From Plicaturopsis crispa FD-325 SS-3 (taxonomy: Eukaryota; Basidiomycota; Agaricomycetes; Amylocorticiales; Amylocorticiaceae): a stretch of 64,000 bases of DNA. Under the pieces are notes generated by a model. The model was not told where the DNA came from. It saw only the letters and a program-made list of their open reading frames with translations, and made no database searches. Made by a program: the position numbers and the translations under genes. Positions 20,888 to 26,105 of this stretch are shown piece by piece (the first letter of the stretch is position 1; every line of letters begins with the position of its first letter). The DNA lies in NCBI GenBank assembly GCA_000827205.1, contig KN832561.1:626042-690041 (forward strand). Reading direction: 5' to 3'.

Positions 20888-20961
20888 TCAGAGCGTAGAG
20901 TCTAGACCGTCTAAAATTCACATTGACATTAGTCTCCCGCAGGCAGCCCCAGAGTGAAGAT

Positions 20962-21657
20962 AGTGAATGCAATTCACCCACCAAAAGTTACGACGCATCA
21001 AAATCGCGCCACGTGCTCCGGCAACTCCGCAAATCAGGCTAAGTCCCTCAAGCGTCTTTGCCCCTTCGAATCTCGATAGTGACCACTCCAACGCGTCGGA
21101 GACTCGGAGTACTTAGAATCTTTTAATCAATAGAATATGAAAGAATATATATCTAAGTTGCCTGTAAGTTATGCAGCATCGTATTGAGACCATGTACTAC
21201 TCGGTAAGGCCCTGACCAGAGACTCGGGGAGCATCGATGCCAAAAACGACGTGCGCCGTGTTGAAAAAGGGCGAAAGCGACTCACCACCTGGCCTCGTAA
21301 CAAGACCGAGGCTCGCATTCCTCCGAACACGATGGGCTATCAGCCCCGACCTCGACCCGGACCGTCCACTTAAGCCTTACTATGTTTTCTATGCTCGGTA
21401 GTGTTTGTAGGCACAGGAAATAAATATATTTGCTTACTCTGGTACATTAGCTACTACCTATTTACCCCCTGTGAGATCTCGGTATCCGACGCGTCGGGGA
21501 GCTCAATGTTCAACGTCGAAACGGCACCGCGCAGGTGCTGAAGCGCGTATATAAAGACGCTCGAGGGACTTGAGCGAGATTTGCGCAGTTGCCGGAGCAC
21601 GTGGCGCGATTTTGATGGCCGTGCGTCGTAACTTTTGGTGGGTGAATTGCATTCACT
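20962..21657. mobile_element. Non-autonomous MULE-like element (MITE) with about 100-bp inverted ends and 9-bp target duplication
   Basis: The sequence from 20962 and the reverse complement of the sequence ending at 21657 match for about 100 bases. Both start AGTGAATGCAATTCACCCAC and run through ATCGCGCCACGTGCTCCGGC and AAGTCCCTC to GCGTCTTT, with one 6-base gap and few mismatches. The nine bases AGTGAAGAT occur at 20953-20961 and again at 21658-21666, immediately outside. Long terminal inverted repeats plus a 9-bp duplication fit Mutator-like elements. The 696-bp interior has no transposase-like frame, so it is non-autonomous. The tips carry their own small palindrome (GTGAAT gca ATTCAC). 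It lies between the kinase and the GMC oxidoreductase 3' end. Confidence 0.85.
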
Positions 21658-21666
21658 AGTGAAGAT

Positions 21667-22054: not shown

Positions 22055-25000
22055 TCAATTTTCTGCCTTGATTATATCGGAGGCCTTCGATTCGTGTCAG
22101 AACAGTCACGGACTGGGATATAGAGGGACATTCACCTTCTCTGCGATGGCATAAATAGTTGACTGTGTATGAGCAGCGAAAAGCTGAGGAATGACGCTAA
22201 GGTAAGGATATATACGTGAGACATTACACCATATACACCATATGGGATGCACAGAGCCATGCTTACCTTCCGTCGACTACTCGTAAATTGGACGTTCCGT
22301 AAACACGTAGGCTTTGATCAACGACACCACCCATATCCTTGGGAGCAAGTGGTGCAGTGCCTAATGGATTGAGTATCAGTTTCTGTCCTGCTCAAAAGTT
22401 GCCGGGGGGCAGGCTGCGCTTGACCGGCCGTATAAGTGTATACGGTTTTACTAATAAACGCGTTCACGACCTACCACCAAAGCTTGTATACGGCCGGCCG
22501 TATAGTTTTCATGAACCATTGCAGACAACCACAATAGAATAGTTTTCATCCACCATCCGTCCCAAAATGGTTTCTACAAACCATTTTTAAACTTGAAACC
22601 GGCAAAATTGACTTTTTTATTACCATTCTGGGGAGTTGAACCCAAGCGCCCAGAAATGAAATGGTTCACAGAAACCATACAAAGTTGCTTGTTGACCGTT
22701 TAACCATTAGACTATCAGGTCTATTCTTCATAATAGATTCTGTTGACCATATTGCAGCCAAAGAAATGGTTTACATGACGCAAATTAACCAGGAATGGTC
22801 GTGGTAAACCAAAATGACAATTTGGTTTGTAAATACTAAATTTTTGACACATTATATATATACTGTACCAAAGCAGTAGTATGGTCGTTTGGCACAGTGG
22901 TCCAGCGCGCCCGTTTCTTACAGTTGTCGCGCGTTCGATCCGCGGAGGGGTGTACCTTTTTATTGTGCGGCACAACCATTTTGATTTTGGTTTAGGCGCA
23001 CTGTTCTCGAGATGGTTCACGGATACCGAACGCAATACGGTTTCTCTACACCGTTATGACCGACATCAGCTATGGTACTAGAAAACCATTCACATTTTTT
23101 TGGTGCCAGACAACTATATTCTGAAATCGATATGATTCCTGGAGACCATTCATGCCTCTCACCCTCAATTTGGTTTGCACAAACCGTATTCATGTTACTT
23201 CTGTGTCGTAAATGGTACCTCAAAACTATACGACCGGCCGTGAACGATTTTCAGTGTTAGGTCGTGAACGGCTTTATTAGAAAAACCGTATACAGTTACA
23301 CGGCCCGCGGTGCGCAACCTATCCGAGTTGCCGATGTGCTCTTACCGACAGGGTGGTAGACGCTCTTTGTGTGCGCGGATCATGGTCAGTGCGTGTACTA
23401 TCTCACAAATATGGCGTAGAAACATACTGTAGTGAACTGTTTTAGCCATCTACAGGGTGGTGTGACCGTTAGTTTCCTAAGAAAGCGCTTCGGAGCCAGA
23501 CTCACTTCAAGTAATCCTCGTCTGTCGTGACACTTGCCGGCGGGCTGTTTGGGCGATCAATCATGGAAGCCAGTGGTTCTGTCTGCGCAACCTTGCGCGC
23601 GTGCTTCAGACCCAGCTTCAGGATTTCGCTGTCTATACGCAACGTCAGTGCATGCGCAATAGCGTCGAGCACGAGCCTACACATACCGAACGAGAAGTCG
23701 AAATAGCGCGGATCGATGGTGGGCGACGCGAATGGGTCTGCGGTGTTGATATGCTGCGAAGGAAAGCTATGAGAGGCCGCCAACACGTGTAGATAGATCG
23801 AGGCAAGGTTGCTCACCACAGATCCACGGCTGAATGGCCGAGCGCCAATGCTCACTATTGTAATATAGCTCCTCCCGGCCAATATAGGCACATTAGTTCC
23901 GGATTTGCCACCAGCTGCATGGATAAGTAGTTAGTCCAGTAGCGAGACGAAAAAGAGGCAGCTACAGACTAGGTGCCATTGCTGTTTCCAGCTGCCCGAT
24001 GCTCCCGTCCACCAGCATCTGCCTCTGGATCGTGTACTGTGCCTTCTGTAGCCCCGTCACGTTCGCCTTTGCAATCTCCTGGTCGAGTGTGCTCAGGATC
24101 GAGGAGACCTCCGACGCGTTTGCAATCTGCTGCAGCGGCTGGACGGCAATGACCGCGTTGGTAGAGGCGTAAACTCCCTCGTGAGTGGTAGCACTGAATT
24201 ACGAGGAAAAATGATTTAGACCAACATCGAGAGGATAAAACAGATGGCAAGCTTACTATTGTTTGACACTGGATGCGTTGTACGAGGCGTTATTCCGAAT
24301 GATATCTATAGCCTACTAAATAAGGTTCGGTCTCTGAAGATTCCGGCACTCACCCCAAGTCAGTGGCGCGGGCTCTTTCAGCAGGAAATCTGAGCCCATG
24401 AGCATATGGTCCTATTTCGGAAGCGCTGCATCAGCGAAGAAGTCAGAGTAGACCCGACTTGAACTGAACTTACTTGGAGATTAGTGCCGACGGCCGGTAG
24501 ATCTATCACTGTCGAGATATTATAGCGCTGAAGGATGGACGAGTCACCGATACCCGAGAGCTCAAGAAGTTGCGGCGTCTTGATCGCGCCTAGACGCGCA
24601 GAAAAGCATATGAGCCCGCATATTGGATATGTCAGTATGCGAGAGACGTACCAGCGGATAATATGACCTCCTTGGTCGCGTTCACTGCGTAAGTCGTACC
24701 CCCTGCTGACATCTGCACACCGGTAGCGACAACAGAGCCATTCCGCTTAGATGTGAAAACTTTTGTTGCCTAACATTCGCATCCGACTGCTGGTAAGAAT
24801 AGGCAAAGCATAGGCGTTGCGATTTTGCGTACCTGAGCACCTGTCAATACCAAGAGGTTCTGCCGGTGTTGATTCGGCGCGAAGAACGCAGATGCAGAAT
24901 ACGACCGCTGGTTGATAGCCGGGTCCACGGAGCGTGCGGACTGAAATATACCAGTCCCGTTACCAGAGTCCTGGCCGAAAGAGGTGCCTGTGTTAGCACA

Positions 25001-26105
25001 ATACCATACCGGAAAGGGAAAACATCTTACGGGATCATCGTTCACAAAAGAGCCCGCATTCACGAAGCTCTGCGCGTAAGGGTACAGCAGGTCCGTAGTG
25101 AAAGTCGCCTTGGTGTTGAAGCCGATCTTGAGCGGTCCTGATTTACCCTGAAATGCAGGATCATTTCCGGGTGGTCCAGATGCCCTGGCCTTGAAGTGCG
25201 CGGAGCGTTTGGTAGTGCCTTCTGGGAAAATACCGCTCTCGCCTGGAGTGACGTCCTCGGACTTTTTGAAGTAGGGGAGGAGGCTGTTCCAGGTCCAGTT
25301 GGAGTTCCCAAGCGTAGCCCATGCGTCATATTCCGCCGAGGATGCACGCCCGTATGTCATGAAGTTTAAGCCGCTGGATCCACCAAGCATTTTACCACTG
25401 GTAGAACACATATTCGTCATCCGGAATATACATAGGCAATGCGAGGGGTATATACGCACATGGACGTTCCGATACCTCTGTTGTCGACGTTTGGCTGAGG
25501 GACTGTCTACAGAATTATGATTAACACGCAAGTTCTGCGAGCATCCTATATCCACAGGATGGAGGACGTACTGTGAGACTCCAGTCAAATTTGGTTTGGT
25601 TCACGGCGGCACCATTTAGGACTGAAGAAAAGTGAGTTGATAACTGTTTCCCAAAGACCAAGAGTGCAGATTAAGGGTCACTTACAAGGCGTATTGACGA
25701 AGGGCTCGTCTGTATAATACGGGCCGGCTTCGATAACGCCTACATTCCAAGCAGGATTCTCGGAGAGCCTGTAAAGGCGAGTCCGTCAGAAACGATATCC
25801 GGCCTCGCGTATATGTCCGGTATACCTTGCAGCTACAACTAAGCCGGCGTTCCCGCCACCTATAACAACCACACGAGAAAGTCATTGATTCCTTATCAGC
25901 CCCGCAAAATATGAAGACACTTACCGACAACTAAATAATGATATGATTGCGACGAGAAGCTCTTCGGATCCGTTGTAAGGCCTGAAGCCCAACATGACCA
26001 TGAGGAAGGTGAACACGAACAACGTGGTGATGTGGAAGACATACCATGAGTACGGGCACCATACGCGAACCCGGATAACGTGAGGATTGTCCACGTCAAA
26101 AGCAT
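22055..26105 (-). CDS. Secreted GMC oxidoreductase (aryl-alcohol-oxidase-like, AA3), with an intron-borne transposable element
   Basis: FAD-dependent glucose-methanol-choline oxidoreductase, probably secreted. The ATG at 26103-26105 starts a signal peptide (MLLTWTILTLSGFAYG). A GTATGT...CTTCAG intron joins THG to LTTDPKSFSSQSYHYLVVG, and the next intron joins VVG to GGNAGLVVAAR, the FAD loop. GKMLGGSSGLNFMTYGRASS is the GMC signature 1. The middle exons carry ASVDP- and DPFASPTIDPRYFDFSF-like segments. Near the 3' end two micro-exons (23428-23449 and 23346-23364) encode the link from EDYLKWLKQFTT to SVYHPVG, with the catalytic histidine codon at 23353-23355. The following exons are 22267-22360 (GTAPLAPKDMGGVVD...NLRVVDG), 22136-22196 (SVIPQLFAAHTQSTIYAIAE, second active-site His) and 22055-22084, ending IIKAEN. 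The intron 22361-23345 contains a 921-bp insertion, but donor and acceptor are intact. All catalytic residues remain. The exact substrate is unknown. Confidence 0.9.
22632..22714 (-). other. tRNA-like Pol III promoter boxes, minus strand, inside the element
   Basis: On the minus strand an A-box-like TAGTCTAATGG (22704-22714) is followed after about 61 bases by a B-box GGTTCAACTCC (22632-22642) with partly paired T-arm flanks. The D, anticodon and acceptor stems do not pair well, and an AAACCAT/ATGGTTT palindrome interrupts the middle. This is a degenerate tRNA-related sequence, not a callable tRNA gene. Confidence 0.35.
22881..22961 (+). other. tRNA-like Pol III promoter boxes with T-run, plus strand, inside the element
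   Basis: TGGCACAGTGG (22890-22900) fits an A-box. GCGTTCGATCC near 22931-22941 fits a B-box, with four of five T-arm pairs around TTCGATC. A T-run follows at 22957-22961, which could end Pol III transcription. The anticodon stem does not form. It looks like a tRNA-derived SINE-type head or a decayed tRNA, divergent from the minus-strand unit at 22632-22714. Confidence 0.35.

Follow-up and report, generated by a model that had tools for sequence, protein, structure and literature searches.

A recently inserted non-autonomous DNA transposon in an intron of a GMC oxidoreductase gene of Plicaturopsis crispa, with probable retention of splicing

Transposons in introns are ordinary, and in maize the Ds and dSpm elements are spliced from transcripts. 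The ends of hAT transposons are of the YAG type, and a length of 921 bp, that of the element described here, is long for a MITE. Introners of the DNA-transposon type, as presented in passages of PMC9860276, have terminal inverted repeats (TIRs), duplications and an intron setting. For the KDZ group, passages of PMC12730594 report 8-bp duplications for Zisupton and for one Dileera family, TIRs for Zisupton, and for Kyakuja a 7-bp duplication with CA..TG ends and without TIRs.

The locus examined lies in a window of 64,000 nt (the whole stretch of DNA that was analysed, C8:626042-690041; the genome searched comprises 33.2 Mb in 49 contigs). Its short GT-AG introns, its GMC oxidases and the abundance of KDZ transposase genes are in keeping with a basidiomycete. 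It is very probably the product of a recent insertion, in which a non-autonomous cut-and-paste DNA transposon of about 920 bp entered a 56-nt intron of a GMC oxidoreductase gene, the enlarged intron likely still being spliced whole. In such an event, a transposase encoded elsewhere would have mobilised the element, insertion into the 56-nt intron would have generated an 8-bp target site duplication, and the enlarged intron would be excised, presumably with efficiency, at the splice sites of the host; pairing of the inverted repeats possibly loops the element out and helps splicing. The maize Ds and dSpm elements are alike in that a transposon within pre-mRNA is removed and the protein kept, whereas at this locus the host intron's own splice sites would serve.

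An earlier note on this DNA had placed a 921-bp element between two copies of AGTTGCCG within the 985-nt intron, and all of its coordinates proved exact (Table 1). Recomputation also returned the remainder that it had given: subtraction of the element and one AGTTGCCG leaves 56 nt with both splice sites kept. Read on the minus strand, the duplication at this copy is CGGCAACT. The insertion point is situated 12 nt behind the donor (20 nt with the duplication) and ahead of a branch-like CTGAT, 16 nt before the end of the intron.

Table 1. Positions in the window of the host gene, the enlarged intron, the inserted element and its parts
Feature	Position	Strand	Basis
GMC oxidoreductase (host gene), 639 aa in 20 exons; start codon uncertain	22055..26042	-	gene model, alignment, domain match
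Exon 17, SVYHPV(G), 19 nt, upstream of element	23346..23364	-	gene model
Exon 18, (G)TAPLAP...VVDG, downstream of element	22267..22360	-	gene model
Intron 17 of 19, phase 1, GTAAGA...CATTAG, 985 nt	22361..23345	-	gene model and boundary check
Copy of the non-autonomous DNA transposon, CGGATAGGTTGC...CAGCCTGCCCCC, 921 bp	22405..23325	- (orientation arbitrary)	copies, duplications, identities
First copy of the target site duplication (plus strand: AGTTGCCG)	23326..23333	.	
Second copy of the target site duplication (plus strand: AGTTGCCG)	22397..22404	.	
One arm of the terminal inverted repeat, 117 nt; complementarity with the other arm 78%	23204..23320	-	
Terminal inverted repeat, other arm	22411..22527	+	
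tRNA-Ala-like segment, A box and B box 22890-22941, then TTTTT	22883..22956	+	
Weaker tRNA-like segment, A/B-box-like motifs 22633-22706	22618..22723	-	

The gene model, put together by hand with the GMC family as reference, is uncertain in its first exon, and a weak GTCTGT donor is needed for the intron before CTGGTGGCAAATCC. Its joined exons are free of stops and frameshifts over all 639 codons, and the protein matches positions 1-217 of 218 of GMC_oxred_N (6.4e-34) and positions 1-139 of 139 of GMC_oxred_C (4.7e-33). The closest solved structures are 4ynt and 7vkd (~1e-91), and the alignment to 4ynt extends across HPVGTA. In agreement with the claim that the exons join in frame at the catalytic motif, SVYHPV runs directly into GTAPLAP in the model. 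The other 18 introns of the gene measure 48-70 nt, and 985 nt is about 15 times the usual intron length of the gene. The nearest paralogue, on C11 (69% over the best stretch), carries a phase-1 intron of 56 nt where the enlarged intron stands, and the paralogue on C22 has one of about 68 nt there, its exon reading HLSG instead of HPVG (both sets of boundaries were set by eye). Because these introns are short, the 56-nt empty form corresponds to what relatives have. The position of the element inside an intron, as originally proposed, is thus borne out by the gene model, by the short intron at the same place in two paralogues and by the HPVGTA alignment to solved GMC enzymes.

Genome-wide, at least six near-full-length copies of the element are present, including the copy in the intron, together with at least one partial copy of 378 bp that stops at a run of N. 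Their identity to the intron copy is 99.9% on C9, 99.2% for the second copy on C8, 94.9% on C1 and on C6, and 93.9% on C10; apart from the terminal C run, no difference separates the copies on C1 and C6 (100% identity). The closeness of the intron copy to that on C9, taken with the identity of the C1 and C6 copies, points to several recent moves, and the insertion, judged from its near-identical copies, is young. The family termini are CGGATAGGTTGC...CAGCCTGCCCC(C), and each of the six near-full-length copies is flanked by an exact 8-bp direct repeat that differs from all the others, namely CGGCAACT at the intron copy (minus strand) and ACCGAGTC, GAGCTCCG, CTGCAAAT, CCCGAGGC and GTAAACAG, the repeat boundary in C1 and C6 having been read by eye from the flanks (an element C run of 4 or 5). 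Downstream of the C10 copy (L006) is a gene resembling epoxide hydrolases (EHN, 8.4e-27), and the distance from the copy to its likely start is about 110 bp, as counted by eye.

These copies bear on the possibility that the long intron is ancestral and is bounded by a pair of AGTTGCCG that arose by chance. In either orientation AGTTGCCG occurs five times in the window, three of them outside the intron pair, so that the pair alone could be a chance occurrence. A chance origin is settled against by the other copies, each with its own 8-bp repeat. Since 921 bp with exactly the same ends recur elsewhere five times, bounded by a different duplication each time, an ancestral long intron is refuted, and the paralogous introns are short; we assign this explanation next to no probability. 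The designation of the sequence as a transposable element, likewise made in the earlier note, is upheld by the long TIRs and by the other near-full-length copies, at least five in number, which have 8-bp duplications of their own.

A second alternative is that the element behaves as an introner, supplying the splice sites and so creating the intron. TIRs, duplications and the intron setting are common to the element and to DNA-transposon-type introners as passages of PMC9860276 characterise them. However, the splice sites are those of the old intron and not of the element or the duplication, the paralogues have the intron without the element, and the C10 copy is upstream of its neighbouring gene rather than in an intron of the coding region. 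The two are therefore alike in their DNA-transposon-like marks and differ in that no intron was created here, which makes the introner explanation very improbable.

Other inverted repeats were seen in the window. Downstream, next to the GMC gene, is an unrelated inverted-repeat element of about 700 bp (20961-21658), the arms of which (20961-21059 and 21553-21658, 90% identity) hold two of the other occurrences of AGTTGCCG. Two inverted repeat pairs are found at 61920-61960/62430-62471 and 62474-62510/62921-62957.

The TIRs of the inserted element are imperfect and about 100 bp long, a second alignment of the arms giving 82% complementarity over 95 nt. A Pfam search with its longest ORF (110 aa) gave no match at E<=1, and the element, which encodes no transposase, is non-autonomous; the term "complete" that had been applied to it holds for its structure, but not in the sense of an autonomous element. 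It resembles MITE-like non-autonomous TIR transposons in being non-coding and in its inverted termini, fixed-length duplication and near-identical copies, and differs from them in its low copy number (at least seven) and in its tRNA-like segments.

Duplications of 8 bp are compatible with hAT, Zisupton and Dileera. The element has the 8-bp duplication of hAT, and its inner terminal bases, TAGG/CAGG, resemble hAT ends; this YAGG lies 4 bp inside the ends of the element, and four extra conserved bases, CGGA and CCCC, stand outside the motif. The genome contains 13 matches to the hAT dimerisation domain, and none of the terminal matches listed has a hAT gene nearby. Zisupton and one Dileera family have duplications of this length, and Zisupton has TIRs, according to passages of PMC12730594, and KDZ transposase genes are common in the genome (43 matches, 42 over the cut-off); no KDZ element with the termini of the element was found, and a diverged relative on C2 is the only physical neighbour of a KDZ-like gene. 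Kyakuja, as these passages of PMC12730594 define it, is excluded by the 8-bp duplication, the CGGA..CCCC ends and the TIRs, which leaves Zisupton, Dileera and hAT as candidates.

No autonomous partner with the same ends was found in searches with each terminal arm. A paired-motif pattern gave 16 matches, of which 14 are known copies or the C2 relative and 2 are, by eye, without element structure. Exact matches to the first 12 bases occur at 11 places, which comprise seven family copies, the C2 relative, a single end on C9 and two places without further similarity (by eye). When two mismatches were permitted in the first 14 bases, 223 places were obtained as against 222 for a reversed control, and terminal matches are thus not in excess; among the 100 of these 223 places listed, none with 0-1 mismatch was, by eye, near a KDZ or hAT match. 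Two KDZ regions, when aligned, are 67-72% alike, with no clear borders. The single family end on C9 (L051:9462-9507) is 96% identical over 46 bp, and neither a second end nor an exact duplication for it was found in 19 kb.

The C2 relative (L053:8523-9340) is 818 bp long and diverged, has the exact 8-bp duplication TACGAGAC, and has its first 100 bp in common with the element at 76%. It lies about 170 bp downstream of a CxC4/KDZ-like gene (L053:6288-8354; CxC4 5.2e-47; KDZ 21.2 bits against a curated cut-off of 26.6). The relative was considered as the end of a KDZ element, but the exact 8-bp duplication at 818 bp favours a separate short element, and nearness to the CxC4/KDZ-like gene is not proof of kinship.

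Because the donor, the CTGAT and the acceptor are all outside the element, the enlarged intron is most likely still removed whole. On these sequence features, splicing of the 985-nt intron is most likely intact and the protein unchanged, and the wording of the earlier note, that the element sits there "without destroying the gene", is consistent with the sequence as something we infer from it. Splice-site score matrices were built from 18 introns only; by these, the donor outscores those of 3 of the 18 other introns and is among the weaker donors of the gene, and the acceptor outscores 10 of the 18. Within the intron, two donor-like sites score at least as high as the real donor, and no acceptor scores as high as the real one.

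The insertion might instead impair the gene, through intron retention, a premature 3' end in the element or cryptic splicing, and so produce a reduced-function or null allele that is tolerated by virtue of the paralogues or because the insertion is very young. The unusual length of the intron, the two cryptic donors, AATAAA-like stretches in the element on the strand of the gene (by eye) and the paralogues on C11 and C22 all speak for impairment, and the intact frame is no proof of function, since 99.9% identity to the C9 copy implies an insertion too recent for the exons to have decayed. On the other hand, the splice signals are all outside the element and no acceptor rivals the real one, and we consider impairment unlikely. 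The unspliced product was computed to have 578 residues, including the histidine of HPVG, followed by 16 more codons to a stop, and would lack the C-terminal region, including the AAHTQ histidine, which we take to be the second catalytic residue. The statement that a naive reading would leave the gene truncated before its catalytic histidine was accordingly imprecise, since the codon for the HPVG histidine precedes the intron.

With respect to whole removal of the intron, the predicted fold of the intron RNA has an energy of -340.3 kcal/mol, compared with -263.4 +/- 7.3 kcal/mol for 40 shuffles of the element, and about 91 arm-to-arm pairs are expected in it. In this fold the first bases of the element are also predicted to pair near the acceptor. 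Relative to the shuffles, the fold brings no shortening of the distance from donor to branch, which is 24 steps, 25 of 40 shuffles being as short or shorter. Pairing of the inverted repeats of the element may possibly help splicing.

The A box and B box consensus, with 25-60 nt between the two, was scanned as a pol III pattern on both strands of the 64-kb window. It has two matches in the whole window, both inside the element, on opposite strands and pointing outward. Among dinucleotide shuffles of the element, 35 of 3000 have a match and 0 of 3000 have one on each strand, numbers that are somewhat flattered because the motifs had been noticed by eye before the test. The set of tRNAs used for comparison consisted of 40 of 53 listed matches, the list itself deriving from 63 scored candidates of 681; the matches omitted were for the most part the lowest ones and further copies of gene types already represented. 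Over its 5' part, the plus-strand segment agrees with the genome tRNA L088 in 30 of 33 aligned bases, with a 2-base gap; the anticodon of L088 was read by eye as CGC, which makes it a tRNA-Ala. The score of the segment, 25.0, is reached by none of 400 shuffles (maximum 20.5) and is the highest in the window. The minus-strand segment scores 21.5 against tRNA L086, and none of 400 shuffles reaches this value; this does not set the segment apart from background, since elsewhere in the window an unrelated stretch scores 22.0.

True tRNA genes in the element are unsupported by either ARAGORN, which gave no tRNA genes in the window, or Rfam, which gave a tmRNA match that is only sub-threshold (11.8 bits, the gathering score being 47), no match to the Ala-like segment at E<=10, and four matches to the minus-strand segment, all sub-threshold. 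The pol III pattern was not found in the C2 relative. A search of the literature with narrow terms turned up no description of a fungal TIR element that carries tRNA-like sequence, which is weak evidence of absence. The element could be conceived as a hybrid of a TIR element and a SINE-like one, in which tRNA-derived pol III modules, one on each strand and directed outward, perhaps let the ends be transcribed by the element itself and the paired TIRs loop out and aid splicing; this idea we regard as doubtful.

The insertion is a confirmed, young, non-autonomous transposable element, ordinary in kind. Gene finders tuned to introns of 50-70 nt would probably cut the gene at 23346. As the insertion is young, its presence or absence could be tracked among strains, and it offers a natural test of the splicing of a 985-nt intron in a short-intron fungus. 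The tRNA-like modules are the less ordinary part of the element and are worth a second look.
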